Positions 16,065 through 34,920 of a stretch of DNA of 45,414 nucleotides are shown here, piece after piece (the first letter of the stretch is position 1; each line of letters starts with the position of its first letter). The notes below the pieces were generated by a model. The model was not told the DNA's origin. It saw only the letters and a list, made by a program, of their open reading frames with translations, and ran no database searches. The stretch is from the IMG/VR virus record IMGVR_UViG_3300042560_002043, positions 1 through 45,414 of that record; one strand, given 5' to 3'. The DNA comes from a virus. Both the position numbers and the translations under genes were made by a program.

Positions 16065-16134
16065 GAGGCAAGGAGGTGGGCCATCAAAGGGTAAGGAGGC
16101 CAGGCGGCCTGCCTGACCTTGTCGTAACAGGCTG

Positions 16135-16578
16135 TTACAAGCCGAGCGGTGGCGCCCATGGCCCGCGGTCGAGGATCTGCTGGGCTTCTTCGACGGAGTG
16201 GGCGACGCCAGCGATGCCGCCGGCCTGATGGACGACGGTGAGGAAGGTGCGCTGCTCTGCCGAAGGCTCCCCCTTGTCCTTTGCCTCGATGGCAACGAAC
16301 ACCGCGATCCGACGGCCCACCATGTCGGGTGTGATGGTGACGGAGTGGAGGCCGATGGCATCACTGGTGCCGCTGAGCACCGAGCCTCCATGAGAGCCGA
16401 GGCCATAGGCGACATACCGGCCGCGCTGATCGTAGAGGCCACCGACGTTGTTGCGCCATAGCCGCACTGGGCCGCGGCAGAGGGTATCGATGATGGGCCC
16501 GAGAACCGTGGATGTCTCACGCGAGGGCCTGGCCTTCCCACGGGTCCGCCGAGCGGGTGGTTTGTCTGTGCTGCTCAC
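16135..16578 (-). CDS. VRR-NUC domain nuclease
   Basis: The 147-aa product is a stand-alone VRR-NUC (PD-(D/E)XK superfamily) nuclease. It shows PVRLWRNNVGGLYD at 37-50, the GTSDAIG motif at 70-76, the catalytic VAIEAKDKG at 96-103 with the E-x-K signature, and QRTFLTVVHQAGGIAGVA with the conserved Gln. This family cuts branched or flapped DNA. I chose GTG at 16578, preceded by GGTGGAG; the gene then overlaps the helicase 3' end by 62 bp in another frame. The genes are probably translated together. The pairing of SF2 helicase and VRR-NUC nuclease is common in phage replication modules. Confidence 0.85.
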   Translation of the reverse strand: MSSTDKPPARRTRGKARPSRETSTVLGPIIDTLCRGPVRLWRNNVGGLYDQRGRYVAYGLGSHGGSVLSGTSDAIGLHSVTITPDMVGRRIAVFVAIEAKDKGEPSAEQRTFLTVVHQAGGIAGVAHSVEEAQQILDRGPWAPPLGL

Positions 16579-20776: not shown

Positions 20777-21204
20777 AATACCTGGAATCAGGGCAACAGG
20801 TAACGAAGTTCACCATCTGCGCTCGTCAAGCAAAGATTCGTGGGCAGGATCTACCGCCACTCTGGTTCACTGTTGAAGTGTGGGGCGGCTCGGCTCAATG
20901 GATTGCCGACAATCTCAAAAAGGGCGAGATGGTTTACGTCTCCGGAGAGTTGTCGCTACAGCAGTGGACTCACCGAGAAACAGGTGAGGTGAAGGAAGCC
21001 CTCACGATCAAGCGCGCCCAGGTGGAGAAGCTGTATGCGTCCCAGCAGGGAAGTGAGGGGGAAGCCCCTGCGGCAGCTGCTCAGGCTGTGGTCCCGGCGG
21101 CCCCGGCCCCGGCCCCGGCAGCACATCAGCAGGCCCCGCCGCGTCCTGCCCCGGTCCACCCGGCTGCCCAACAGGCTCCGCCCCCCTCCACCCCGTTCGT
21201 GTGA
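20725..21204 (+). CDS. ssb: Single-stranded DNA-binding protein
   Basis: Residues 1-108 form an SSB OB fold: NITTTGRLGRDPEMKYLESG, then VTKFTICARQAK, WFTVEVWGGSAQWIADNLKK, GEMVYVSGELSLQQW and EALTIKRAQVEKLY. The rest is a flexible Pro/Ala/Gln-rich tail. The end, PPSTPFV, replaces the acidic DDIPF tip of bacterial SSBs, so contacts with host SSB partners may differ. It is encoded last in the RecE/RecT operon, before a terminator. Confidence 0.93.
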   Translation: MACNITTTGRLGRDPEMKYLESGQQVTKFTICARQAKIRGQDLPPLWFTVEVWGGSAQWIADNLKKGEMVYVSGELSLQQWTHRETGEVKEALTIKRAQVEKLYASQQGSEGEAPAAAAQAVVPAAPAPAPAAHQQAPPRPAPVHPAAQQAPPPSTPFV

Positions 21205-21257
21205 TCGATTGTTAAGACCCCTGGTCTCCCGCCGGGGCGTACCAGATAATCCCATCA

Positions 21258-21284
21258 GCGGGGGCACCATCCCCCGCCTTTTCC
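21258..21284 (+). terminator. Intrinsic terminator after the recombination operon
   Basis: GCGGGGG (21258-21264) pairs perfectly with CCCCCGC (21271-21277) around a 6-base loop and is followed by CTTTTCC. It lies 54 bp after the ssb stop and should end the RecE/RecT/SSB transcript. Confidence 0.75.
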
Positions 21285-21295
21285 TACCATCAGCC

Positions 21296-21475
21296 ATGAC
21301 CATCACCGCTCTGCGCCGCCGCAACCTACGCCGCCGGCAGCCACCACCAGTGTTTCGCATCGAGCACCTCGCCGGTCTTGTTGCGGCTTTTGTATTCACC
21401 GGCTTTTTGATGAATGCTCACAGGTTAATCATGCCATCTTGCAGCCCCACCACGTTCGCCGAATGCCGAAAATGA
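21296..21475 (+). CDS. Small membrane protein (59 aa)
   Basis: A frame from ATG at 21296 to TGA at 21473-21475, overlapping the Rieske-like gene as ATGA. The N-terminus is strongly basic (LRRRNLRRRQ), followed by one predicted membrane helix (HLAGLVAAFVFTGFLMNAHR), giving an N-in topology by the positive-inside rule. The start lies only a dozen bases after the terminator and has no Shine-Dalgarno, which is a reason for doubt. The coupling to the next gene supports it. Confidence 0.5.
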   Translation: MTITALRRRNLRRRQPPPVFRIEHLAGLVAAFVFTGFLMNAHRLIMPSCSPTTFAECRK

Positions 21476-22164
21476 ACACCTACAAAATGCCCATTGAACT
21501 ACAAAGGTATGTAGATTTCTTAGCTGCTAATCCGTCGCCAACTGATGTAGTAGCCGGCAAGTGCTACATGGTGCCATGCGCAAACTACACCGCAGACAGT
21601 TGCCACCCACGATGGGTCCCACTTGTTGGGACTGTCCACGAAGACAGAGACGCTATAGGATTCAAGGCATGGCATGTGCACGTTGATACAAGGTTTCTTA
21701 CGGTAAAAAAATGCAATAATCCGATAGATCAAGAGGAAGAAAACCTAAGTGCACTAGGGCGCCCTTTGTCTTTAACCTGCCCAAGGGTTTGTAACTATGA
21801 CAGCGAAGTTTTGCTGTCCTCAGCACATGCTCCACTGAAAGTGCGCAGAATGCAAGCCCGCCGAGCTGAATCGTTGGAATGGAAATTCAATGATTTAACT
21901 GACTGGCGCAACGGAAAGAATTGGTTGATTACGTTAGAAGACACCTACGCCAATGCATTTCCAGCTTGTGGGGTATGCCCCCATCGTCAGATTCCATTAT
22001 CTGCCGGCAGGGACATGGGCAAAGGTGTCAGGCAATGCCCTGGCCATGGCCTGTGCTGGGACCGAGATGGCCGGATGGTGAGAACCGCGGAGGAGGCGCC
22101 AGCGAATGGCGAAGTGTTACAGAGTGTTGCGACCCACGGCGCAGGGGTGGCAGGTGGTAGATAA
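21472..22164 (+). CDS. Rieske-type [2Fe-2S] domain protein
   Basis: The 230-aa protein has a C-terminal motif that meets the Rieske consensus exactly: Cys169-Pro-His171, 17 residues, then Cys189-Pro-Gly-His192, with the surrounding pattern CPHRQIPLSAG and CPGHGLCWDRDGR seen in Rieske ferredoxins and oxygenase alpha subunits. It should bind a 2Fe-2S cluster through two Cys and two His. The first 160 residues (GKCYMVPCANY, WVPLVGTVHEDRDAIGFKAW, HVHVDTRFL) are not a known oxygenase catalytic domain. The start at 21472 overlaps the preceding stop as ATGA. An electron-transfer or redox-sensing role is inferred, and the partner is unknown. Promoter P1 lies over its 3' end. Confidence 0.78.
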   Translation: MNTYKMPIELQRYVDFLAANPSPTDVVAGKCYMVPCANYTADSCHPRWVPLVGTVHEDRDAIGFKAWHVHVDTRFLTVKKCNNPIDQEEENLSALGRPLSLTCPRVCNYDSEVLLSSAHAPLKVRRMQARRAESLEWKFNDLTDWRNGKNWLITLEDTYANAFPACGVCPHRQIPLSAGRDMGKGVRQCPGHGLCWDRDGRMVRTAEEAPANGEVLQSVATHGAGVAGGR

Positions 22165-22190
22165 TTTGGTGGTCGGGGCGCAGGAGCCCC
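22115..22190 (+). promoter_or_regulatory. Promoter P1 of a three-member phage promoter family
   Basis: An 18-bp box TGTTACAGAGTGTTGCGA (22115-22132) is followed 27 bp later by a -10 GATAAT (22160-22165). A GGGGC/GCCCC hairpin (22175-22190) begins where the RNA should start. The -10 contains the stop codon of the Rieske gene. The same layout recurs at 28667 and 30483. It would drive the 64-aa gene at 22209 and those downstream. Confidence 0.6.
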
Positions 22191-22208
22191 ACTACCCACA
22201 AGCCAGCC

Positions 22209-22403
22209 ATGACGCCCCCCACCACACTTCACCAAGTCACCTGCAAAGACGGCATCCTGTACGACGTTCTGAAGGCCAGCGCCTACACTTTCAAAGGCTG
22301 TGATCGCGTCAGCTACACCTGTAAGCGTCCCCGCGGCCGTCGCACCTACATCATCATCGGCTACGAAAACGGAACTTTCAGCACCGCCGCGCAAGCCTCA
22401 TGA
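22209..22403 (+). CDS. Uncharacterised 64-aa protein
   Basis: First gene after promoter P1. The product (TPPTTLHQVTCKDGILYDVL, then ASAYTFKGCDRVSYTCKRP and a basic TYIIIGYENG strand) looks like a small beta-rich protein with three cysteines. No family is recognised. The ATG sits in CCATGAC without a Shine-Dalgarno, as do the other promoter-proximal starts in this genome. It is coupled to the next gene by ATGA. Confidence 0.62.
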   Translation: MTPPTTLHQVTCKDGILYDVLKASAYTFKGCDRVSYTCKRPRGRRTYIIIGYENGTFSTAAQAS

Positions 22404-22795
22404 CCACCACCCTCCACAACGCCACCATCGGCGCCCATCTCCACCGCCTTGCCCGCGCCATCGTCCCTCTGGTGGCCTTTACCTACGTCGCTGGCCTTGC
22501 CCTTGGCGATTGGCTTCACTGGCTGAACGACCGCCTTGCCGGCCGCGGCAGGGCCCACTGGGCAGCATCCGCACGCCGCCGACCCGTGGCGCTGCTTCAA
22601 CCGGCTATTGACCGCCCCTGCTACATCCAGCTTGTTGGCCGAGCATCCCGCACGCCTCTTGAAGGAGTCTCAGTGATCGGACTACGCCAGATTGCTCGCA
22701 GCGCTGGCATCCGCGAGACCGGCGGGCGGAATGTGAGATCAGCCCGCAAGGCGGATCTGATCCTCGCAATACGTTCAAGACTGCAAACCTGCTAA
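22400..22795 (+). CDS. Membrane-anchored protein with SAP-like C-terminus
   Basis: The 131-aa product has a hydrophobic helix near the N-terminus (IVPLVAFTYVAGLALGDWLH), a basic linker and a C-terminal segment VIGLRQIARSAGIRETGG ... KADLILAIRSRL. That segment matches the two-helix pattern of SAP or Rho-N-like nucleic-acid-binding domains. It could tether DNA or RNA to the membrane; this is inference. It is coupled to the upstream gene by ATGA. Confidence 0.62.
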   Translation: MTTTLHNATIGAHLHRLARAIVPLVAFTYVAGLALGDWLHWLNDRLAGRGRAHWAASARRRPVALLQPAIDRPCYIQLVGRASRTPLEGVSVIGLRQIARSAGIRETGGRNVRSARKADLILAIRSRLQTC

Positions 22796-22823
22796 ATTCC
22801 ACAGCCTACATTGTGCCTCGCAA

Positions 22824-23459
22824 ATGAAACCACCAAACTGGACAAAAGCTGAGGAAGAGTTGCTGGCCAGCCTGGCCGGCGAGATGCCATTCTCTATTGC
22901 AACCAAAGTCTACATGGCGCAAGCTTCTTCGCGGGGTTTCCCAAAACGCACCCGTGTAGCATTAGAAGTAAGAGCAAAGATCATAGGTGTTCACAGAACT
23001 TCCACAGGAGAATGGTTGTCTACGGGTGACATAGCAAAAGCCCTTGATGTATCAATTCAAACGATCGTTCGATGGGTAGATGATAAAGGACTAAAAGCAA
23101 GGATTATCAAAAAGAAACGGTGGATAAAGCGATGCGACCTTCGCGGTTTTGCAAGGCAGTATCCTGCTTTATTTGGTGGGTTGAGCGAGCCTCAACTCAT
23201 ACAGCTGCTGGACCAAGAAGGCATCGCCAAATGGTTGGCAGAAAAAAATCTTCCTTTGCGTCGGATAAGCCTACCTGTTTTCTGCGTTGAAACAGGGAAG
23301 AAGTTCAGGTCAATCAAAGAAGCAGCTCGTTTTGCTCACGTAACGCGCCAGCGGATGGCAGATGCAATCAAGTATCAGCAATACGCCAACGGCAAGCATT
23401 ACAGGATGTTACGGCCTGAGCTTGTTGCAGCCACCAAGGCTCTGCCGAACGTATCATAA
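22824..23459 (+). CDS. Three-domain DNA-binding protein (SANT-like, MerR-like HTH, NUMOD1-like)
   Basis: The 211-aa product has three likely DNA-binding segments. Residues 4-54 (NWTKAEEELLASLAGEMPFS, RTRVALEVRAKIIG) resemble a SANT/Myb helix set. Residues 64-100 (WLSTGDIAKALDVSIQTIVR, WVDDKGLKARII) form an HTH of the MerR/excisionase type. Residues 153-200 (VFCVETGKKFRSIKEAARFA, HVTRQRMADAI, GKHYRML) match the NUMOD1/IENR1 repeat found in homing endonucleases. No nuclease domain is present. A regulator built from endonuclease parts is the best reading. A 12-bp palindrome directly follows the gene. Confidence 0.7.
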   Translation: MKPPNWTKAEEELLASLAGEMPFSIATKVYMAQASSRGFPKRTRVALEVRAKIIGVHRTSTGEWLSTGDIAKALDVSIQTIVRWVDDKGLKARIIKKKRWIKRCDLRGFARQYPALFGGLSEPQLIQLLDQEGIAKWLAEKNLPLRRISLPVFCVETGKKFRSIKEAARFAHVTRQRMADAIKYQQYANGKHYRMLRPELVAATKALPNVS

Positions 23460-23469
23460 GAACGTTCTT
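23458..23469. promoter_or_regulatory. Perfect 12-bp palindrome, possible operator
   Basis: AAGAACGTTCTT overlaps the stop codon of the three-domain DNA-binding protein and lies 28 bp before the next ATG. It could be an operator for that protein or a short RNA hairpin; the sequence alone does not decide. Confidence 0.35.
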
Positions 23470-23497
23470 TTGTTCAACCCTTCCCCCACTTTGAATC

Positions 23498-24748
23498 ATG
23501 GCAACTAATTGGAGAGAACTCTGCAGTTATCTTTTGGACGAAGTTACACACGAATCAGCTAACACCTGTTTGATTCGTGAAATGCTAGAACAGCCTGAAG
23601 AAACTACGCCTAATCTGCCCCGAGCGGTTGAGGCTGATCGTGCGCAGCGGGGCGACGCACCACCACCCCTAGAGCCCCGCGGCTGCCCCACCCCTGGCGC
23701 TTGCTCATGCCCTACGGCGCCGATCGTGCCACCGGAGCTGATCCGGGCATTGGAGCTGGCAGAGGCTGCGCTGGCGGACATCGGCGACGCCGACCGCGAG
23801 GAAGGCGATGACCTGGCATGGGCCGAGGCCCGAGCTGCGCAGGATCTGCCGCGCATCCGCCAGGCGTTGAAACTGCCCGACTACATCTTATCCCGCGCCA
23901 CCACCACCCCAAAAGTGCAAACGCCAACGGATGCGGATCTATACGACCTAGCTGCCGAGCACAGTGGCGATCCGGTGCCAGCGATGCGCAGCGCCTTGGC
24001 TTTGTGGGGCAGCCCTGCGGTGGCCCAGCCCGAGGTGGAGGAGCTGACGGATAAAGAGTTGAAGCGGCTTGCGTGGAATATTCATGCAGAAGCTAAAGAT
24101 GACACCACGTGTGGCGATGTTGTCGTGCGTGTGTGCCGCGCCGCCATCGCCGCCGATCGCGCCCGCTACGGCCGCCCTGCCGTGGCGCCGGTGACCCAGC
24201 CCGAGCCCGAGACGGGTGAGGAGCTGATTGAACTCAGGAAACATTTTGAGCGGATCCTGTGCGATGCCCGTTCGTTTGGCGGGCCAGTAGTCGGAAACAT
24301 TGCGCTGGCAGATCACCTGCTTAACGCCGTTTCCGCCCGCTACAGCCGCCCTAACGTGGCGCTGATCGTACCGCCGGAGTTGATCCGGGCATTGGAACTG
24401 GCAGAGGCTGCGCTGGCGGACATTCGCGACATTGAGAATGCAGACGCAGACCGCGAACGCGGGAATGACGTGGCATGGTATGAGCGCCGAGCCCTGGATG
24501 GTCTACGGGACATCCAGGGCTCGGCGTTGAATCTGTGGCGGGATCATTCTGCCGTCGCGCCGGTGGCGGTGAGTAAGCGCCCTTGGGAGCGACCTGGCTG
24601 GTGTGATGCAGAGGGATTGTGTTGGTGGTGCCCACCAGAAGGCCCGGCGTATTGGAGCATGGTCGAGCCGGCAATGGTCTACGGCGGATCTTTGCTCCCC
24701 CACTGGGCCATTCCGCTGCCCACCACCACACAGGAGCCACAGCTATGA
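23498..24748 (+). CDS. Large modular early protein with duplicated helical segment
   Basis: The 416-aa product is built from repeats. The segment PPELIRALELAEAALADI occurs near residues 78 and 291, each followed by an acidic helix with a DLAW or DVAW motif. The start (NWRELCSYLLDEV) resembles that of the 189-aa protein at 32692. The C-terminus (GWCDAEGLCWWCPPEG, then YGGSLLPHWAIPLP) is a Trp-rich module that recurs in small proteins of other phages. The function is unknown. A perfect 16-bp inverted repeat lies within the coding sequence. The end overlaps the next gene as ATGA. Confidence 0.7.
   Translation: MATNWRELCSYLLDEVTHESANTCLIREMLEQPEETTPNLPRAVEADRAQRGDAPPPLEPRGCPTPGACSCPTAPIVPPELIRALELAEAALADIGDADREEGDDLAWAEARAAQDLPRIRQALKLPDYILSRATTTPKVQTPTDADLYDLAAEHSGDPVPAMRSALALWGSPAVAQPEVEELTDKELKRLAWNIHAEAKDDTTCGDVVVRVCRAAIAADRARYGRPAVAPVTQPEPETGEELIELRKHFERILCDARSFGGPVVGNIALADHLLNAVSARYSRPNVALIVPPELIRALELAEAALADIRDIENADADRERGNDVAWYERRALDGLRDIQGSALNLWRDHSAVAPVAVSKRPWERPGWCDAEGLCWWCPPEGPAYWSMVEPAMVYGGSLLPHWAIPLPTTTQEPQL
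24485..24526. repeat. Perfect 16-bp inverted repeat inside a coding sequence
   Basis: CGCCGAGCCCTGGATG (24485-24500) and its exact complement (24511-24526) flank a 10-base spacer. The RNA would fold into a very stable hairpin in the middle of the gene at 23498-24748. The corresponding part of the gene's other repeat copy (about 23815-23870) lacks this symmetry. Confidence 0.85.
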
Positions 24749-25257
24749 CAAAGGATTTCAAGTACAGCCCCAGCCCAGAGTACAGGTTTTTACTGTATTG
24801 CCCTAGCAACGGGTTAACATTTTGGAAAACTGCGGAGGAAAGGAATGAAGCGGGTAAGGAATTGATTTCGGAATACCTTGACGACAGAGAATGGAACGAA
24901 GAAGTAGTAGAAATTTTCGCCGGCACGGTGGATGGGCATATTGTAGAAGTAGACCAGAAACACCGAGTAGGCAAGCTAGATGATGACGGATATGACGAGG
25001 ATGGGCAATACTGGCCTAACAATGAATGCGATTATACATGCAATTATGAGTTACAGCCGCTGCCCACCACCACAGGAGCCCCAGCCATGACCCCCGCTCA
25101 GATCGCCGAGGCCATGGCCGACGCCTACAGAGACCGCTACGAGCGCACAGGCCCCCTCGAAGATCCGATCGAGCCATGCCTCGCCGCGGCTGTGCGAGCC
25201 ATGCCGCCAGGGTGTGACGCGGTGGCGGTGGCGGATGCGCTGGAGGGGTTGGAATGA
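24745..25257 (+). CDS. Early protein of 170 aa, probably two fused small genes
   Basis: The frame opens with ATG at 24745, overlapping the upstream stop. Residues 1-105 form one module (FLLYCPSNGLTFWKTAEERN, then EEVVEIFAGTVDGHIVEVDQ, and a DDDGYDEDGQYWP acidic end). After a PLPTTTGAPA linker comes a second module starting MTPAQIAEAMADAYRDRYER. The linker DNA (25059-25092) nearly repeats the stop/start junction at 24713-24748 and still contains CAGGAG before the internal ATG at 25087. So the second module can probably also be made alone, and the fusion seems to come from loss of two bases. No function is known for either. Confidence 0.68.
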   Translation: MTKDFKYSPSPEYRFLLYCPSNGLTFWKTAEERNEAGKELISEYLDDREWNEEVVEIFAGTVDGHIVEVDQKHRVGKLDDDGYDEDGQYWPNNECDYTCNYELQPLPTTTGAPAMTPAQIAEAMADAYRDRYERTGPLEDPIEPCLAAAVRAMPPGCDAVAVADALEGLE

Positions 25258-25442
25258 CCCACGAGTGGCAGTGGCATCGCCGCCGATGGCGTGATTGCCA
25301 AATGCTGGCAACCGCCGGAGCATGGTGGTTCGTCGGTGTTGACATTGGATGGTTTGGTCTGGGCGTTGTGCGCGAGCTATGGGGCTGGCGGATCATGCTC
25401 GGGATGTGGCATCTGTGCGGGCGCAAGGAGGTGCGGCCATGA
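25254..25442 (+). CDS. Small Trp-rich, probably membrane-associated protein
   Basis: The 62-aa product overlaps its neighbours by ATGA at both ends, which supports it. It is rich in Trp and Arg, with a hydrophobic middle (MLATAGAWWFVGVDIGWFGL). No family is recognised. Confidence 0.55.
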   Translation: MTHEWQWHRRRWRDCQMLATAGAWWFVGVDIGWFGLGVVRELWGWRIMLGMWHLCGRKEVRP

Positions 25443-25840
25443 TCCTCGACCGCCTCGCATGGTTTGCCATGGGCGCCACGGTTGCCCTAACCCTCTGCGG
25501 CTGGCTGTGGCATCACCGATTCAGCCGGTACAAACCCCGCCACCGCCAATCCCTGCCGCCACAGGGTGACTGGTTGGACGAGGCCTTCCCGTTGCCGCCG
25601 CCCGATGTCATGGCAGCTATCAACCGCCAGCTAGATCGCGCCATTGCCGCCGAGATGGCCCGCCGCGGCAGCAACCCACCACCGCCCGGCCGCAAGCCGG
25701 CACAGCCGGCCGGGCCGCCATGCAATGGCGGTGAGATCACGCTGGCTCAATGGGAGGCCATGCGCACGCATTTCACCGAAGGGCTAGTCCAGCGCGGCCA
25801 GGGCAACGGCGGGCCCAGCACGGAGAAGCCATGGGAATGA
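25439..25840 (+). CDS. Single-pass membrane protein with Pro-rich tail
   Basis: The 133-aa protein has an N-terminal membrane helix (RLAWFAMGATVALTLCGWLW) and a cytoplasmic tail with the module RRGSNPPPPGRKPAQPAG. The same module, at DNA level too, is in the 83-aa membrane protein at 32444. A short helix (TLAQWEAMRTHFTEGLVQRG) ends the protein. The start overlaps the preceding stop as ATGA. The function is unknown. Confidence 0.6.
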   Translation: MILDRLAWFAMGATVALTLCGWLWHHRFSRYKPRHRQSLPPQGDWLDEAFPLPPPDVMAAINRQLDRAIAAEMARRGSNPPPPGRKPAQPAGPPCNGGEITLAQWEAMRTHFTEGLVQRGQGNGGPSTEKPWE

Positions 25841-26832
25841 GCCACACCCTGCACCTTGGCGACTGCCTGGAGGTGATGCGCACCATGCCGGATTGCAGCG
25901 TGGACGCGGTGGTGACGGATCCGCCGTATTACCGCGTCAAAGATGAAGACTGGGATCGCCAATGGGACAACCCAGAAGCGTTCTTGGCTTGGCTGGATCA
26001 GGTCGCCGAGCAATGGCAACGGGTTCTTAAGCCTAACGGGTCGCTTTATTGCTTTGCTTCCCCGCAGATGGCGGCACGGGTTGAGGTGATGCTTGGGCGG
26101 CGGTTTCAGGTGTTGAACAGCATCCGATGGACCAAAGCCCATGGGTGGCACGAAAAGGCCGAGAAAGAAGCGCTGAGGTCTTACCTCTCGCCATGGGAAG
26201 CCGTGATCTTTGCCGAGCAGCTTGGGGCGGATGGGTCAGCGCTGCATGGCTCTGGCTGGGCCGATCAATGCGCAGAACTTCGCGCTGGGGTGTTTGAGCC
26301 GCTGCGCCAGTACCTGCTTCAGGAGCGAGATAAGGCAGGCATCGCGAATCGACAGGTTGACGAGTGCTTGGGCACATCGGGCATGGCTGGCCATTATTTC
26401 GGGGCTAGCCAATGGGCGCTGCCCACTGAGGACGCCTACGCCAAGCTGCGGCACCTGTTCAACAATGGCCTAGGACACAAGTACCTCCGGCGCGAGTACG
26501 AGGATCTCCGGCGCGAGTACGAGGATCTCCGGCGCCCATTCAATGTCACCCGATTTGATCCGTTTACTGACGTTTGGACTTTTAGCACAGTCAAGCCAAG
26601 GCCGGGAAAGCATTCATGCGAGAAACCTCAGCCCCTGCTCCGGCACATCATCAATAGCAGCACCAATCCGGGCGCCGTGGTGCTTGACTCATTTGCCGGC
26701 TCTGGATCAACCGGCCAAGCCTGCCTTGCCCTGGGGCGTGAGTTTATCGGTATTGAACACTGCCCCCACTGGCACCGTGTTGCGCTTCGCTCCCTGACGA
26801 TGATCCAGCCCGATCTGCCGCTTTTAGGATAA
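25831..26832 (+). CDS. DNA adenine-type methyltransferase (beta class)
   Basis: The 333-aa product has the catalytic motif IV VTDPPYYRV at residues 28-36 and, near the C-terminus, the AdoMet motif DSFAGSGSTGQACLALGRE. Motif IV before motif I defines the beta class, and DPPY usually means N6-adenine methylation. GDCLEVMRTMPDCSVD precedes motif IV as in the family. A REYEDLR repeat before the C-terminal motif is encoded by a 21-bp tandem repeat. No restriction gene is nearby, so it is an orphan enzyme, perhaps protecting phage DNA. ATG at 25831 has GGAG five bases upstream; ATG at 25837, which overlaps the previous stop, is the alternative. Confidence 0.92.
   Translation: MGMSHTLHLGDCLEVMRTMPDCSVDAVVTDPPYYRVKDEDWDRQWDNPEAFLAWLDQVAEQWQRVLKPNGSLYCFASPQMAARVEVMLGRRFQVLNSIRWTKAHGWHEKAEKEALRSYLSPWEAVIFAEQLGADGSALHGSGWADQCAELRAGVFEPLRQYLLQERDKAGIANRQVDECLGTSGMAGHYFGASQWALPTEDAYAKLRHLFNNGLGHKYLRREYEDLRREYEDLRRPFNVTRFDPFTDVWTFSTVKPRPGKHSCEKPQPLLRHIINSSTNPGAVVLDSFAGSGSTGQACLALGREFIGIEHCPHWHRVALRSLTMIQPDLPLLG
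26485..26535 (+). repeat. 21-bp tandem repeat in the methyltransferase gene
   Basis: Two full copies (26485-26505, 26506-26526) and a 9-bp partial copy of a unit starting CTCCGGCGCGAGTACG encode the LRREYED repeat. I recall similar REYEDLR repeats in related methyltransferases, where copy number varies; slippage during replication is a plausible cause. Confidence 0.85.
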
Positions 26833-26971
26833 TGTCCGGCAATCACTCAACACAGTCTCCCCCTCTTTACCGCATGAACGGCGCCCAACTCGGCCTAGCC
26901 CTCAATCCCCCCACACCACCGTGAGGGGATCTATCCCACTATCTGATGCCGATCGACCGGGAGGTACAGCC

Positions 26972-27187
26972 ATGAGCACAACCACCACCCGCCAACCTTC
27001 CGTCGAACGCGGTTGCACTGGCAAAGCCAACCTAGGCAGGCGGTACCAGCAGGCTGCCAATCGCCTGGCCGCCAAACACAGCAAACGCTTTGGCGTGTAT
27101 CGCTGCCCGCATTGCGGTGGAACCCACCTGACCACCAAGCTGGGGAACACTGCGCTATACGAGCCTCTGCTGTACGTGACCTGCTGA
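26972..27187 (+). CDS. Small zinc-ribbon protein
   Basis: The 71-aa product ends with a likely half zinc ribbon, RFGVYRCPHCGGTHLTTK, after a basic helix (RYQQAANRLAAKHSKR). ATG at 26972 has GGGAGG nine bases before it. The 139-bp gap upstream (26833-26971) contains only a weak CCCTCA/TGAGGG inverted repeat and no convincing gene. A role in nucleic-acid binding is inferred from the zinc ribbon and the basic charge. Confidence 0.65.
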   Translation: MSTTTTRQPSVERGCTGKANLGRRYQQAANRLAAKHSKRFGVYRCPHCGGTHLTTKLGNTALYEPLLYVTC

Positions 27188-27215
27188 CCTTCCATCCCAC
27201 CACAGGAGAATCCCC

Positions 27216-27833
27216 ATGCTGAAAAACGACCGATGGATCCGCGAGCAAGCCGCCGCCGGCATGATCGAGCCCTTTCAGGCGGGGCTGGTGCGGGAGGTTG
27301 TGCTTGACCCCGGCCCGCCAGGTTTCCCGCTTCCCCTCAAAGTCCCTGCCCTCTCCTACGGCTGTTCCTCCTACGGCTACGACCTACGCCTAAGCCCTAA
27401 GGAGTTCCTGATCTTCCGCCATGTACCGGGCACGGTGATGAACCCGAAGCGGTTCAATCCCGCCAACCTGGAGCCAGCGCCCCTGCATGAGGATAGCGAT
27501 GGCCGCTATTTCATCCTTCCGGCCCACTCCTACGGACTGGGGGTCGCGCTGGATCACATCGCGATCCCCCAGAACATCACCTGCCTGTTCATCGGCAAGT
27601 CCACCTATGCCCGCATGGGGGTGATCGCCAACCTGACACCGGGAGAGGCCGGCTGGAAGGGGCACCTCACCCTGGAGCTCAGCAACTCCAGCGGCGCCGA
27701 CTGCCGCATCTATGCAGGGGAGGGCATCGTCCAGGCTTTGTTCTTCGAGGGGGAACCCTGCGAGACCACCTACCAAGACCGCGCCGGCAAGTATCAAGGG
27801 CAGCCGGAGCGGGTGACCTTGGCCCGAGTGTGA
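27216..27833 (+). CDS. dcd: dCTP deaminase
   Basis: The 205-aa product matches dCTP deaminase/dUTPase-fold enzymes, which turn dCTP into dUTP on the way to dTTP. It has SYGCSSYGYDLRLSPKEF, a GLGVALDHIAIPQNITCLFI strand pair, GKSTYARMGVIANLTPGEAG with the conserved GKSxxAR, and GHLTLELSNSSGADCRIYAG, in which the LTLE motif provides the catalytic Glu. The final YQGQPERV is typical. Phages use it to supply thymidine nucleotides during replication. ATG at 27216 has AGGAGAA upstream. Confidence 0.92.
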   Translation: MLKNDRWIREQAAAGMIEPFQAGLVREVVLDPGPPGFPLPLKVPALSYGCSSYGYDLRLSPKEFLIFRHVPGTVMNPKRFNPANLEPAPLHEDSDGRYFILPAHSYGLGVALDHIAIPQNITCLFIGKSTYARMGVIANLTPGEAGWKGHLTLELSNSSGADCRIYAGEGIVQALFFEGEPCETTYQDRAGKYQGQPERVTLARV

Positions 27834-27834
27834 A

Positions 27835-28032
27835 ATGGAGCTCCTTCAACCCGACCCTGCCGCACCCCTGGCGCCCCATATCCGGGTCGGACAGGACGAG
27901 CGCGGCTGCTGCTGCTGGGAGGTGGTGGACGGCGACCTGGTGGTGCGGACGGTGAGCATGACCCGAGCCAGGCAGCTCCTGGCCGAGCGGTGGTCGCTAT
28001 ATGACGAATTGCAACTAGGTGAAGGGCAATAG
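27835..28032 (+). CDS. Uncharacterised 65-aa protein
   Basis: This frame starts 1 bp after the dCTP deaminase stop. The product has strands ERGCCCWEVVDGDLVVRTVS and a helix TRARQLLAERWSLYDELQL. The tight spacing supports it. No family is recognised. Confidence 0.55.
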   Translation: MELLQPDPAAPLAPHIRVGQDERGCCCWEVVDGDLVVRTVSMTRARQLLAERWSLYDELQLGEGQ

Positions 28033-28063
28033 CCAACAACTCGTCGCCATGGCGTCAAAGTGT

Positions 28064-28090
28064 GTGGGTCGGGAAAATTCCCGGTCCCAC
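28064..28090 (+). other. Hairpin in the leader of the 90-aa gene
   Basis: GTGGG plus CGGGAA (28064-28075) can pair with TTCCCG plus CCCAC (28078-28090) with small internal bulges and a 2-base centre. It lies 12 bp before the ATG at 28103. It has no T-run, so it is more likely a translational control or boundary element than a terminator. Confidence 0.4.
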
Positions 28091-28102
28091 CCATGCACTC
28101 CC

Positions 28103-28375
28103 ATGCCTCCCGTGACCAACATTGAACGCCCTGAACAGCAATTCACTCTGTCATTTGGCGCCCTTGCGCAGCGACTGGAGGACCAGCTACGTGATCAAGG
28201 CTTACGACTGAATATGACGCCGTTACGTTGCGCGCTTTTGCAGCGTGATCTCGATGAAGTGTCACGACTTCTTTTTAGGGAAGTGATTACAAGAAAAGAA
28301 GCGACTAACGCACGGTCGCGAATTTTCAAGCGCATTCAGCGCAGCGTCAAGCCACTGGAGGAGCACAATGGCTGA
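28103..28375 (+). CDS. Small helical protein, paralogue of the gene at 31382
   Basis: The 90-aa product contains FTLSFGALAQRLEDQLRDQG, LRLNMTPLRCALLQRDLDEV and a basic C-terminal helix. The 77-aa protein at 31382 has the same order: VSLGALSPPIGEQLREQG, LKLDMDPLQRGYLQRDADEV, then a basic helix ending KPL. The genes are clear duplicates. ATG at 28103 was chosen from this alignment; ATG at 28049 and GTG at 28019 are upstream options. The amphipathic helices suggest a small regulator or an anti-host factor; no family is recognised. Confidence 0.65.
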   Translation: MPPVTNIERPEQQFTLSFGALAQRLEDQLRDQGLRLNMTPLRCALLQRDLDEVSRLLFREVITRKEATNARSRIFKRIQRSVKPLEEHNG

Positions 28376-28664
28376 AGCCGCCCTTGTCTCCTACCTGCTG
28401 GCCAACCGCCATCGGATCCCCAACCGGGCGATCATTAACTGCCTAGCTCTGGCTCAACTGAACCCAACTCCCAAACGCCGAGTTACCGCTAAGGAGCTAA
28501 TTCCTATTTTCCAAAGCAACACGCAAGGCGGGATTAGGTTTCTCATGAATGAACTCAGGCATTTTGGCCTGGTTGACTTCGATTCAGGAAGACGCGGCAC
28601 CCCCGGCTACCTGATCTGGCGGGTGGGGCCAGAGGAATGCCGCGGCCAGCAAGCCAACCACTGA
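28368..28664 (+). CDS. Winged-helix-like protein (98 aa)
   Basis: The product has a helical N-terminal half and the pattern VTAKELIPIFQSNTQGGIRF, LMNELRHFGLVDFDSG, GTPGYLIWRVG, typical of a winged helix-turn-helix with a beta wing. It may regulate phage transcription. It overlaps the upstream gene by 8 bp, and promoter P2 begins two bases after its stop. Confidence 0.62.
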   Translation: MAEAALVSYLLANRHRIPNRAIINCLALAQLNPTPKRRVTAKELIPIFQSNTQGGIRFLMNELRHFGLVDFDSGRRGTPGYLIWRVGPEECRGQQANH

Positions 28665-28666
28665 AT

Positions 28667-28744
28667 TGTTACAGAGTGTTGCGAGCCGCGGCCAATGAGC
28701 GGGAGGCGGGTGCATGATATGTGCATCGGGAGGCAACCGCCTCC
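28667..28744 (+). promoter_or_regulatory. Promoter P2 of the phage promoter family
   Basis: The same 18-bp box as in P1, TGTTACAGAGTGTTGCGA, lies at 28667-28684. A -10-like CATGAT/TGATAT lies at 28713-28720. The predicted RNA starts near 28725 and at once forms a perfect stem, GGAGGC-AACC-GCCTCC (28729-28744). It would drive the 97-aa gene at 28842 after a leader of about 115 bases, which also contains GGGGCCTTGACCCC. Confidence 0.6.
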
Positions 28745-28841
28745 TCCGGGGCCTTGACCCCTGGCCCGCGGGGAGCCTGCCAGATCGTCGGCAATCCCCG
28801 CACACCACCCCACCGCACCCCACCACCAACCATCCCCAGCC

Positions 28842-29135
28842 ATGACTCTGTTCGTCGTCGAGACCCAGAACGCCGACTATCTGTTCCATTGCCCCTCGGC
28901 CGCCGCTTCGTTCGCCGCTGAAAAGCGGCGATGGTGGATTGAGAACTGCCCGCCAATGGGCACCCCGCCGATCTTTCCGGTCCCGATGGGGCCGCAGCAT
29001 CGATTCCGCACGGATTTCGCCGATACCCCGCTGGAAGCCGGGCCAGGTCAAGACAGCTGCAGCCGCGTACAGCGCCACGTCCGCCGCTGGTGGGCAGAGC
29101 GCGATGCGTGGTGGAATGCTCCACAGCCTGCCTGA
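28842..29135 (+). CDS. Uncharacterised 97-aa protein
   Basis: The product starts TLFVVETQNADYLFHCPSAA and has a Trp- and Arg-rich second half (EKRRWWIENCPP, RRWWAERDAWW). The frame is the first after promoter P2, and its ATG lies in CCATGAC without a Shine-Dalgarno. No family is recognised. Confidence 0.58.
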   Translation: MTLFVVETQNADYLFHCPSAAASFAAEKRRWWIENCPPMGTPPIFPVPMGPQHRFRTDFADTPLEAGPGQDSCSRVQRHVRRWWAERDAWWNAPQPA

Positions 29136-29147
29136 CTTACCACCCCA

Positions 29148-29306
29148 TCAAAACCGACCACCGCGGTAGGGGAACACCTGACGCAGAGCACGCAGCCCCA
29201 ACTGAGCGAGGCTGTTGCTCCGCAGAGAACTCATGCCTACCAGCTCAGAGGCAACGAACAGGCCGAACCCAATGAGTTCCAAGTGAGTGGGGGAAAGGTT
29301 GACCAT
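29148..29306 (-). CDS. Small membrane protein of the lysis island (52 aa)
   Basis: ATG at 29306, preceded by CAGGAG, to TGA at 29148-29150. The product is one hydrophobic helix and an amphipathic tail: LELIGFGLFVASELVGMSSL followed by RSNSLAQLGLRALRQVF. Very similar short proteins (ASEVIGM, then NSVVQL) are common in cyanophages and other phages, where they are unnamed. It lies 29 bp downstream of the C39-type peptidase gene, so a holin, antiholin or spanin-like accessory role is plausible. Confidence 0.62.
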   Translation of the reverse strand: MVNLSPTHLELIGFGLFVASELVGMSSLRSNSLAQLGLRALRQVFPYRGGRF

Positions 29307-29335
29307 GATGTGCTCCTGTGGTTGATGGGATTCTA

Positions 29336-30073
29336 TCAGCCGCTGGCCAAGATAGCCCAGCCGTTGCCGGGTGCGTAGCGGTAGCTGTTTCCACTTGGTA
29401 CCACTTCCCAGCGGCGAGAGAAGTTCTTGTAGCTATAGCGTAGATCCGCCCCGTAGCTGTTGACGTATCCGCCATTGACGAGATCCATTTCTCCGAATGG
29501 GTCATTGACGATTAAGGCGGTGTCGTCATAGCCGATGGCGCAGATCCAATGGCCGTCGCCGTAGAGGTTGTTTAGATTCCCCTTATGGACACAGCCAAGT
29601 GGCACGCGCCTGCCCCGATCGATCTGAGCCCTGACGTCATCAAGCGTGCAGGTTTGATCGAATCGAGCCTGCACCCCAAAATATGCCAGCGCCTTGAGCT
29701 GCGCTGCCGCGTCGATGGTGTCGCCGTAGCGGAGCACGCGGCCCAGGTAGGCGTCGTCGCCGTTGGGGCCTTTCAGGGTGCCAGGCTTGAGGGCCTCTAG
29801 CAGCATGGCGCAGGAGCTGCTGAAGCACATCCTCAGCGCGTGCTTGGTGTTGGAGTCTCGCTGGGAGTAGTAGGGCCCCGGCAGAGGATTCCGCCGTACC
29901 GGTGCGGCCGGCTGCGCGGGGCTGCCATTGTCCCGCCACATTTCAGAGAACGCTTTGCGCTGCGCCTCGCTCATCCCCTGATCCAGGGCTGTGAGTGCTG
30001 CCAGTTGATGGGGGGTGATTTGGTCTTGGCGAACAAGCCACTCGGCAGCGGCGCGGACTGAGGTGTAAGCCAT
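29336..30073 (-). CDS. C39-like cysteine peptidase, candidate endolysin
   Basis: Residues 65-215 fit a C39_2/papain-like peptidase: PYYSQRDSN with Gln71, the probable nucleophile Cys83 in ALRMCFSSSCAMLLEA, then GDTIDAAAQLKALAYFGVQA, the active-site His175 in GDGHWICAIGYDD and Asp191 in VNDPFGE. The N-terminal 60 residues may bind the cell wall. Phages use this fold in place of a lysozyme to cut peptidoglycan cross-links. No other endolysin candidate is seen in the genome, and membrane-protein genes flank it. No signal peptide is visible. Confidence 0.75.
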   Translation of the reverse strand: MAYTSVRAAAEWLVRQDQITPHQLAALTALDQGMSEAQRKAFSEMWRDNGSPAQPAAPVRRNPLPGPYYSQRDSNTKHALRMCFSSSCAMLLEALKPGTLKGPNGDDAYLGRVLRYGDTIDAAAQLKALAYFGVQARFDQTCTLDDVRAQIDRGRRVPLGCVHKGNLNNLYGDGHWICAIGYDDTALIVNDPFGEMDLVNGGYVNSYGADLRYSYKNFSRRWEVVPSGNSYRYAPGNGWAILASG

Positions 30074-30109
30074 TAGATCTTCCGTGATAGGCGTGCAAGG
30101 GTGGACATC

Positions 30110-30433
30110 TTAGTGCTTCTTGTAGCCGCTGGCTTCAGCTGGTGGTTCGCCAAAATGCAAACGTGGGTTTATTGACTGCCAAAGCAGTGGTGTAAGCAGA
30201 GCAAGCACGCCAAGCAAAACAGCGCCTTGTGCTACTAGAACCTTTACATCCTGCAACTCTTTGGCGATTGGTGCGGGATCTGGCCTCTTTTCTATCTCGC
30301 CAAGCCGTCGAAACGCTTCGGATAGATCAACCTGCCTGTCAGCTACAAGCTTTGCAAGGGTATCAATTTTTCCTTCGACACCACCGAGCTTATAGAGAAT
30401 GTCTCCGTGTGAGACCCCATGTTCCTCCGCCAC
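30110..30433 (-). CDS. Holin-like membrane protein
   Basis: The 107-aa product has a coiled-coil N-terminal half (DILYKLGGVEGKIDTLAKLV, EAFRRLGEIEKR) and one membrane helix (VLVAQGAVLLGVLALLTPLL) near the C-terminus. This is the layout of many phage holin or lysis-associated proteins. GTG at 30433 is the only start that keeps the full helix region; no Shine-Dalgarno is visible, so the start is uncertain. It lies 36 bp upstream of the peptidase gene in the same direction. Confidence 0.62.
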   Translation of the reverse strand: MAEEHGVSHGDILYKLGGVEGKIDTLAKLVADRQVDLSEAFRRLGEIEKRPDPAPIAKELQDVKVLVAQGAVLLGVLALLTPLLWQSINPRLHFGEPPAEASGYKKH

Positions 30434-30482
30434 AAAAAGCCCGCTGTTGCGGCCAGTGTAGCCGCCAGCAACGTGGTTGCAA

Positions 30483-30559
30483 TGTTACAGAAAGTTACGG
30501 ATGGTAGTCAGCAGACGGCAGGCTGATACATAATACCCACATCGGAGGCCTCGGCTTCC
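30483..30559 (+). promoter_or_regulatory. Promoter P3 of the phage promoter family
   Basis: The box here is TGTTACAGAAAGTTACGG (30483-30500), in which GTTAC is directly repeated ten bases apart. The -10 CATAAT lies at 30529-30534, the same distance as in P2. The predicted RNA begins ATCGGAGGC and folds as GGAGGC-CTCG-GCTTCC (30544-30559), the same stem as in P2 with one G-C replaced by G-U. It points away from the lysis island into the block of small genes at 30581-34920. Confidence 0.62.
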
Positions 30560-30580: not shown

Positions 30581-30937
30581 ATGACCGTCCCTCTCCTAGG
30601 GTCATCGCCTCCCATGGACCCCAACAGCACCCTCCCTCTGTGGTCATCGCCTGACCCTGCTGACTGGAGTAAGGCCATGCGCGCCGAGCTGCAGGTGCTG
30701 CGCTCCACCATCCTGCGCGTGGGTTTGCTGGCCGCCGGCATGGCCTGCTCACCTGAGGAGCGAGCGCGGCTCCAGCTGCTGGCCCACGAGGATCCCGCAG
30801 GCATCACCACGGCCAACATGCGGGAGCTGCACCGCCAGGTGCTGCAGATCACCCGTGACGTGGCCGTCTACGCCCAAGCGGCTGTGAGCCAGGCCGCGGC
30901 CGCTCATGATGATCCGCGTCGGCAGGAGGCGGGCTGA
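30581..30937 (+). CDS. Uncharacterised helical protein (118 aa)
   Basis: First gene after promoter P3. After a Pro/Ser-rich N-terminus the product is largely helical (ADWSKAMRAELQVLRSTILR, VGLLAAGMACSPEERARLQL, NMRELHRQVLQITRDVAVYA). ATG at 30581 is in CCATGAC; ATG at 30614 is an alternative. It is coupled to the next gene by TGATG. No family is recognised. Confidence 0.6.
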   Translation: MTVPLLGSSPPMDPNSTLPLWSSPDPADWSKAMRAELQVLRSTILRVGLLAAGMACSPEERARLQLLAHEDPAGITTANMRELHRQVLQITRDVAVYAQAAVSQAAAAHDDPRRQEAG

Positions 30938-33891: not shown

Positions 33892-34033
33892 ACACCACAA
33901 CCAACACTATTACGATGCCATCCGCATCCGTCGGGCACGCCGCGCCAGGGCATGGGCAGCACTTTACATCATAGTCCTTTTACTTTCTGTTTTCCCTTAT
34001 CTTGTGATGCTTCTTATTTTGTGGAGCAGATGA
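33884..34033 (+). CDS. Small membrane protein upstream of the sigma factor (49 aa)
   Basis: ATG at 33884 has AAGGAGA seven bases upstream and overlaps the previous stop by 8 bp. The product has a basic N-terminus (AIRIRRARRARAW) and one long membrane helix (LYIIVLLLSVFPYLVMLLIL). Its stop overlaps the sigma-factor ATG as ATGA. The coupling raises the possibility that it controls or localises the sigma factor, as membrane anti-sigma factors do, but nothing in the sequence shows that. Confidence 0.68.
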   Translation: MTKHHNQHYYDAIRIRRARRARAWAALYIIVLLLSVFPYLVMLLILWSR

Positions 34034-34920
34034 ACAACACAGACACAACAAAATGGATGAAGGACCGCTTTGGCAGGGTTCCTCTTCTCACCCCTGCGCA
34101 AGAAATAGAGCTAGCCCATGCAGTGCAGCAATGGCTAGCGCTTGGTGATAGCTACGAAAAGACAGCAGATACAGCAAGGATAGAGCGCCGCGGTAGGCGA
34201 GCCAAGGATAGACTCATCGAGTCTAATCTAAGGCTAGCATTCAGTTACGTCTGTGAAAAGCATAGACACGTGTCGGGGGAAGATTTACACGATATGTTTC
34301 AAGAGGCTACTATAGGCCTTGCCCGTGCCGCCGAAAAGTTTGACCCAACAAAAGGATATAAGTTTAGCACTTATGCTTTCTGGTGGATCCGTCAAGCGGT
34401 AAACCGCTGGCTAGATACAAAGTCTCGAACCATTGCACTACCATGCGGCAGTTTCGGTATTGCCATGAGGATCAAAGATGCAAAAAGGGAACTAAAAGAA
34501 TTTGGGATACAGCCAACTGTTCAATCCATAGCCACTCACCTAGACATAACGGAAAGCAAGGTAGAGTCGATACTTGCCGCCCCTGTCGTTACCTACTCGA
34601 CTGATCAGTTGGTCAGCGGCACTAATGAGCTAACAATCCTTGAAACCCTGTCTACCCCTTGTGAAGATGTTGATGAACAGCTTACTTACAGTACCTATCG
34701 GCTATCACTAATTGCCGAGAACATAGATGAGATATTGGGTATGTTGAATCCGGCAGAGGCTCGGATTCTAAAAGACTACTATGGAATTGGAGTAGCGCCA
34801 CAGCAACAAGCGCAGATCGCAAAGGCATACAATATCTCCGCTTCTGTTGTTCGGCAGCGATTAGCAAGCGCTCAAAAGAGATTTCGTGGTGCTGCCTTGC
34901 GATTTACGCTGCCCACTTAG
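34030..34920 (+). CDS. Sigma-70 family RNA polymerase sigma factor, cyanobacterial-type
   Basis: The 296-aa product has sigma region 1.2 (GRVPLLTPAQEIELAHAVQQ, residues 15-34), region 2 (RLIESNLRLAFSYV, then MFQEATIGLARAAEKFDPTK and GYKFSTYAFWWIRQAVNRWL, 61-128), region 3 (about 140-190) and a divergent region 4 (LNPAEARILKDYYGIGVAPQ, then QIAKAYNISASVVRQRLASA, 239-281). Region 1.2 with PLLTPAQEIEL and the region 2.4 sequence resemble cyanobacterial primary and group 2 sigma factors more than the small phage types. ATG at 34030 follows GGAG and overlaps the previous stop as ATGA. It probably redirects host polymerase to phage promoters. Confidence 0.93.
   Translation: MNNTDTTKWMKDRFGRVPLLTPAQEIELAHAVQQWLALGDSYEKTADTARIERRGRRAKDRLIESNLRLAFSYVCEKHRHVSGEDLHDMFQEATIGLARAAEKFDPTKGYKFSTYAFWWIRQAVNRWLDTKSRTIALPCGSFGIAMRIKDAKRELKEFGIQPTVQSIATHLDITESKVESILAAPVVTYSTDQLVSGTNELTILETLSTPCEDVDEQLTYSTYRLSLIAENIDEILGMLNPAEARILKDYYGIGVAPQQQAQIAKAYNISASVVRQRLASAQKRFRGAALRFTLPT

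Follow-up and report, generated by a model that had tools for sequence, protein, structure and literature searches.

Which regulator switches on the promoters of an uncultured virus, and what do the structured 5′ ends of the resulting RNAs do? These questions are raised by the IMG/VR virus record IMGVR_UViG_3300042560_002043 (45,414 nucleotides, all of which were analyzed and are called the window here), for which a preliminary description had proposed a family of three promoters, P1, P2 and P3, each with an 18-bp box, a −10 element and a hairpin at the RNA 5′ end. We found that the box consists of directly repeated half-sites and resembles HLR1, the element of the cyanobacterial regulator RpaB, that it recurs in related phages at two defined distances from the −10, and that the hairpin of P2 belongs to a conserved leader RNA. 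As a joint explanation we consider it probable that the window derives from a siphovirus-like phage infecting freshwater cyanobacteria, whose early promoters would borrow RpaB of the host via the HLR1-like box and give rise to RNAs with structured 5′ ends.

Promoters with an upstream direct repeat

Direct reading of the window located all boxes, −10 elements, TCGG motifs and hairpins at the positions described before:

22115..22132, + strand: P1, putative activator box, HLR1-like direct repeat TGTTACAGAGTGTTGCGA
22160..22165, + strand: P1, −10 element GATAAT
22175..22190, + strand: P1, 5′ hairpin GGGGC-GCAGGA-GCCCC
28667..28684, + strand: P2, putative activator box TGTTACAGAGTGTTGCGA, similar in kind to the boxes that precede the leader in other phages
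28713..28718, + strand: P2, −10 element CATGAT
30483..30500, + strand: P3, putative activator box TGTTACAGAAAGTTACGG
30529..30534, + strand: P3, −10 element CATAAT
30544..30559, + strand: P3, 5′ hairpin GGAGGC-CTCG-GCTTCC

The distance from box start to −10 start is indeed nearly constant (45 bases at P1, 46 at P2 and P3), TCGG lies exactly 7 bases past each −10 at the opening of the hairpin, and CCATGAC follows downstream of all three promoters (ATG at 22209, 28842 and 30581). Also the reported G-C to G-U change between the stems of P2 (GGAGGC/GCCTCC) and P3 (GGAGGC/GCTTCC) is real. The claim that a conventional −35 is missing holds for P1 and P2 but not for P3, where TAGTCA gives a 4/6 match with an 18-bp spacer. 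When up to three mismatches were allowed, the box pattern matched five times in the window compared to 0.65 expected matches, and five matches were reached in none of 100 shuffles.

The box has the form GTKACR-N4-GTKACR, a direct repeat with a period of 10 bp. TGTTACAGAGTGTTGCGA can be parsed as GTTACA-GAGT-GTTGCG, and the boxes of the window carry GTTACA as first and GTTGCG or GTTACG as second half-site, thereby agreeing with HLR1 in half-site, 10-bp period and direct orientation. A reading as sigma −35 was rejected, since about 29 bp separate the end of the box from the −10 downstream. NtcA (GTA-N8-TAC) and CRP (TGTGA-N6-TCACA) bind inverted repeats; both readings were rejected because the half-sites of the box are direct, and by inspection the second arms of NtcA and CRP sites are absent.

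Near-identity searches for related phages and searches for the elements in phages found no relatives, and an exact scan of viral contigs for box plus −10 matched only contig L004 and one AT-rich coding sequence. In L004, the P2 box is identical, the P3 box reads TGTTACAGAGTGTTAAGG, and the P3 hairpin has the same stem with a different loop (CACG). Because of this outcome of the exact scan, a position weight matrix was derived from boxes linked to the leader in other contigs. Relative to the leader CGGG, these boxes (GTGACGGATTGTTACG, GTTACGGATTGTTGCG, GTGAAGCATTGTTACA and similar) hold a constant position of −59 or are shifted upstream by about 9 bp. Scored with the published HLR1 consensus, 15 clusters of leader-upstream boxes reached a sum of 125, compared to 103.3 ± 2.8 for dinucleotide shuffles (maximum 112 in 300).

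The matrix detected additional promoters with other leaders. Among 38 nonredundant boxes, strong −10 elements were found at distances of 44–46 (14 boxes) and 53–55 (8 boxes) and almost none at other distances, with 0.04 expected per distance. The same two peaks appeared in the non-leader boxes alone, which had not contributed to the matrix. The two classes are about one helical turn apart (9–10 bp), as expected for an activator bound on one face of the DNA. For box density, relatives retrieved via the RecT protein served as comparison set: the eight closest (63–75% RecT identity) contain 22 boxes in 105 kb, 13 of them with a −10 at these spacings, while 68 distant RecT phages of other lineages contain eight in 654 kb, five with a −10 and all of these one repeated sequence. 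The box density in the closest relatives is thus about 14-fold above that in the other lineages. Leader-bearing records have 71 boxes, 49 with a −10, in 468 kb of partly overlapping loci. A control with the matrix on reversed sequences gave no combination of box and −10 in any set. With a direct-repeat box recurring in many phages at a fixed −10 distance in two classes, the postulated activator at the box is strongly supported; moreover, box and stem are conserved in relatives, the absence of which had been named as a refutation.

Candidate activator of the promoters

The large terminase subunit TerL of the window shares 61% identity with TerL of the Synechococcus phages S-CBS1 and S-CBS3, and a sigma factor of the window is similar to those of S-CBS1/3 and S-LBS1; the phages with these related proteins infect Synechococcus. 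From the TerL identity and the presence of a sigma-70-family factor, a cyanobacterial host is likely. The genes that matter here are:

22824-23459: HTH_17/MerR-like protein, encoded among the box promoters
30581..30937, + strand: first open reading frame (ORF) of a same-strand gene run led by P3, with the sigma factor as last gene
33952..34920, + strand: phage sigma-70-family factor (regions 1.2–4)

RpaB is a light and redox regulator of cyanobacteria, and NblS-RpaB is a redox-sensing system. The HLR1 element of this OmpR-family response regulator is KTTACAWW-N2-KTTACAWW, and the position for activation is about −66 to −45 (PMC13421787), which is supported for atpT (PMC9241938). The phage boxes lie at −57..−40 or, one turn further up, at −66..−49 relative to the predicted transcription starts, with box centres about 48 or 57 bp before the start, and fit the activating position. 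The OmpR/PhoB DNA-binding domain Trans_reg_C (PF00486) was not found in 19 phage records, while the positive control was found in Synechococcus elongatus. Therefore, the activator is probably encoded by the host, and a host RpaB-type regulator is the likely candidate.

A phage-encoded activator acting like CII of lambda, e.g. the HTH_17/MerR-like protein, would account for the conservation of the box in phages and for the location of this gene among the box promoters. We regard it as quite unlikely, since no OmpR/PhoB domain is present in the 19 records, direct repeats tolerating a shift by one turn better fit a winged helix-turn-helix regulator of the host, and the box occurs in promoters of both arms, as expected for immediate-early transcription. 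Another OmpR-family regulator of the host (RpaA, SrrA/NblR type or Pho-type) appears rather unlikely, though less so than a phage protein. With such a regulator, the promoters would follow clock, stress or phosphate and not the light signal of RpaB. A 10-bp direct repeat is a general signature of OmpR-family sites, and the WW of HLR1 is not matched by the phage boxes; on the other hand, the KTTACA half-site, the spacing and the position for activation are as published for RpaB.

Several observations weigh against the joint explanation. The third position and the last base of the half-sites are often G (GTGACG), and the WW following each HLR1 half-site is not found: GA follows the first half in the boxes of P1, P2 and P3, GA or GG is usual in the phage boxes, and in the matrix of leader-linked boxes these positions are mainly G/A, then A/T. 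RpaA, a paralog of RpaB, is reported to share some RpaB sites, with overlapping targets of both (PMC13421787). Such promoters are few or absent in the isolates S-CBS1, S-CBS3, S-LBS1 and KBS-S-2A, the leader of L007 and L008 is accompanied by a degenerate box, L009 and L010 have the P3 gene but no P3 promoter, and simple 5′ hairpins are only weakly enriched at non-leader promoters.

With RpaB as activator, transcription could proceed as follows. At a promoter with a −10, usually without a good −35, and an HLR1-like box upstream, a host response regulator of the OmpR type, with RpaB as the most likely one, would bind the box as a tandem dimer and recruit host RNA polymerase, and early phage transcription would therefore be tied to the light and redox state of the host. 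As the gene run led by P3 ends with the phage sigma factor, a hand-over from host-activated early to phage-sigma-driven late transcription is suggested. In many of the RNAs, only a few bases would precede a first hairpin, and at one promoter per phage, here P2, this hairpin would be extended to the three-hairpin leader. Irrespective of the downstream gene, the leader may act in cis, be it on the transcribing polymerase or by protection of the RNA.

Further candidate promoters of this design, all missed in the preliminary description, were detected in the window:

21201..21216, + strand: P0, box GTGATCGATTGTTAAG
21245..21250, + strand: P0, −10 element GATAAT
21258..21277, + strand: P0, 5′ hairpin GCGGGGG-CACCAT-CCCCCGC (−15.1 kcal/mol, z −3.1)
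23398..23413, + strand: P4, box ATTACAGGATGTTACG, a weaker candidate
23452-23457, + strand: P4, −10 element TATCAT, 54 bp from the box and thus one helical turn longer
16123..16138, − strand: leftward box GTAACAGCCTGTTACG in the replication arm, with a weak −10 TACCCT 45 bp on

P0 has the same −10 distance as P1–P3, a 7-bp 5′ hairpin, CCATGACC, and an ATG at 21296 (ATGACC). Leftward boxes with similar −10 elements are also present in related phages. The leftward box of the window (16122-16139) doubles as an inverted repeat, GTAACAG-CCTGTTAC, and can therefore be read on both strands; a −10-like sequence is present on the leftward side only. All window boxes scoring >14 lie within 16–31 kb, i.e. 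in the early and replication region, and none in the structural-gene arms. The early region also contains a 241-aa ORF matching a Rieske [2Fe-2S] domain (window 21439-22164).

5′ hairpins and the leader RNA of P2

The hairpin at P2 turned out to open a conserved leader of about 78 nt with three hairpins, which had been missed before:

28722..28806, + strand: three-hairpin leader RNA (hairpins 28728-28745, 28748-28761 and 28768-28801)
28842..29135, + strand: 97-aa ORF predicted to be transcribed from P2, without family match

The leader is present in 36 other IMG/VR contigs. A pattern of hairpin 3 detected 24 of them, and a second scan with hairpins 1 and 2 only, hence independent of hairpin 3, added 12 after four chance matches had been set aside; these 12 were confirmed by a covariance model. 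The leader is conserved over its whole length of about 78 nt; flanks and downstream genes vary. Usually there is one copy per record. Tandem copies about 300–360 bp apart were observed in L092 (6489-6932, − strand), where each stands behind its own box and −10, and in L019 (2041-2433, + strand), where the second copy is degenerate.

To count covariation, 26 rows were aligned by sequence only. Two-sided changes were present in 7 of 23 pairs, and 19 compensatory cells were counted compared to 3.5 ± 1.5 after shuffling (reached in 0/500), while controls with slid partners gave only 0–1 pairs with two-sided changes. Pair variants include GCGGGGA/TCCCCGC, GCCCGGA/TCCGGGC and GCGGAGA/TCTCCGC, TGCC/GGCA versus TGGC/GCCA, and a change from A-U to G-C in hairpin 1. 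The unpaired residues TGGCCC, AGCC and the loop GTC are near-invariant. By inspection, a pseudoknot is possible between GGC of the junction (columns 42-44) and GCC of the internal loop in hairpin 3 (columns 54-56); these columns of alignment A3 (window 28722-28806) are near-invariant.

The Rfam 15 covariance models gave no match to the leader at E values up to 5. Scanning GTDB genomes with the hairpin-3 pattern returned eight matches, all non-cyanobacterial by title and judged to be due to chance, and the leader is absent from the isolates S-CBS1, S-CBS3, S-LBS1 and KBS-S-2A. Rfam has no entry for this RNA family, which is supported by covariation and, in the collections scanned, is present only in uncultured viruses. 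Chance or an assembly artefact could be considered, as a GC-rich genome folds easily and background 40-mers are as stable as many of the leaders, but the occurrence in independent contigs from many metagenomes, the covariation and the spacing peaks refute this explanation, whose probability is negligible.

Selection on RNA structure, previously argued from the stems of P2 and P3, is well supported for the P2 leader and is also seen at a second promoter class, TAGGTT, downstream of recT. Here the hairpin is kept while its sequence changes (GCCC-GAGA-GGGC, GCCC-GAAA-GGGC, GGGG-GAGA-CCCC), including an exchange of the stem from GCCC/GGGC to GGGG/CCCC around an unchanged GAGA loop. Several different small ORFs follow the TAGGTT promoter and its 5′ hairpin (L103, L104, L105, L108, L110, L111, L075), and in most TAGGTT promoters the box is separated from the −10 by a spacer that contains the inverted repeat GCCGG..CCGGC. 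Across the promoters of L102–L113, GAGA/GAAA tetraloops are frequent in the 5′ hairpins (9/37 versus 2.7% background).

As a universal part of the promoter family, the 5′ hairpin is unsupported: it is present at P1–P3, but several promoters have none. The P1 hairpin alone folds no better than shuffles (z −0.8). In a first set of non-leader promoters, 8/17 had a 5′ stem compared to 31% background (P 0.12), and in a larger set 18/37 compared to 30% (P 0.014), where the true excess is smaller because four leader-type promoters were included. The 5′ hairpin is common and lies outside the promoter definition.

With respect to leader function, a riboswitch or gene-specific feedback is disfavoured because the first downstream ORFs are mostly unrelated. 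In L007 and L008, relatives of the 97-aa ORF are in second position after the leader, with an inserted ORF in front. Two roles remain to be weighed. The hairpins may do no more than protect the 5′ end of the RNA or adjust translation where a leader has no Shine-Dalgarno sequence, the three-hairpin form being a stronger version. For this, hairpin 1 occurs alone at P3 and other promoters (CATCGGAGG..CCTCC) and stems are retained despite sequence change; the conserved unpaired TGGCCC, AGCC and loop GTC, however, exceed the needs of a simple 5′ block. We regard this role as plausible, although short of an even chance, and the second one as slightly less so. The put RNAs of HK022 have a two-stem structure contacting the zinc-binding domain of the polymerase β′ subunit and cause antitermination. 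These RNAs of about 70 nt function from early promoters without requiring a protein (PMC9378689). By analogy, the P2 leader might modify host RNA polymerase and suppress downstream pausing or termination: it covers about 78 nt beginning at the predicted transcription start (+1) of a phage promoter, is mostly present once per record, has conserved paired and many conserved unpaired residues, precedes mostly unrelated genes and lacks a terminator tail. Against this analogy, it has three stems instead of two, and in the window a single ORF follows, then a gene on the opposite strand.

Significance and comparison with known systems

Cyanophages are known to need light and host photosynthesis (PMC5082946). 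A full-text literature search for cyanophage, promoter and RpaB in combination returned no paper. If the proposed activation is true, phage gene expression would be linked directly, and in a testable manner, to the redox-sensing NblS-RpaB system via the HLR1-like phage promoters. The far-reaching version, in which RpaB as the master regulator of host photosynthesis drives the early genes of a widespread group of freshwater cyanophages through phage HLR1 boxes, and these phages carry a new class of polymerase-modifying leader RNA, so that light or redox state gates infection at transcription, we put forward only tentatively and consider doubtful as a whole. That unrelated small ORFs are preceded by the same promoter-leader unit shows how accessory genes are exchanged among these phages, and the leader is compact enough for antitermination, RNA-stability or translation tests in a cyanobacterial host.

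Among known systems, HLR1/RpaB promoters of the psaA, cpcB and atpT type share with the phage promoters the GTTACA-like direct repeat with 10-bp period, the activating position and, in most cases, the lack of a −35. The phage boxes differ in that they precede phage genes, often have GTGACG half-sites with GA/GG flanks, and fall into two spacing classes one turn apart. The CII-activated lambda promoters PRE and PI also combine a weak −35 with a repeat-binding activator, but the box of the window promoters is further upstream (−57..−40), tolerates a shift by one turn, and its activator is apparently not phage-encoded. Stabilizing 5′ stem-loops of the ompA type lie, like the window hairpins, within a few bases of the RNA 5′ end, whereas at P2 the hairpin belongs to a conserved element of three hairpins in which unpaired residues are conserved as well. 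HK022 putL and putR (PMC9378689) are, as predicted for the P2 leader, 5′-terminal cis RNAs of about 70–80 nt in phage transcripts, with stem-loops and no dedicated protein evident; the P2 leader differs by three hairpins, another sequence and another host.

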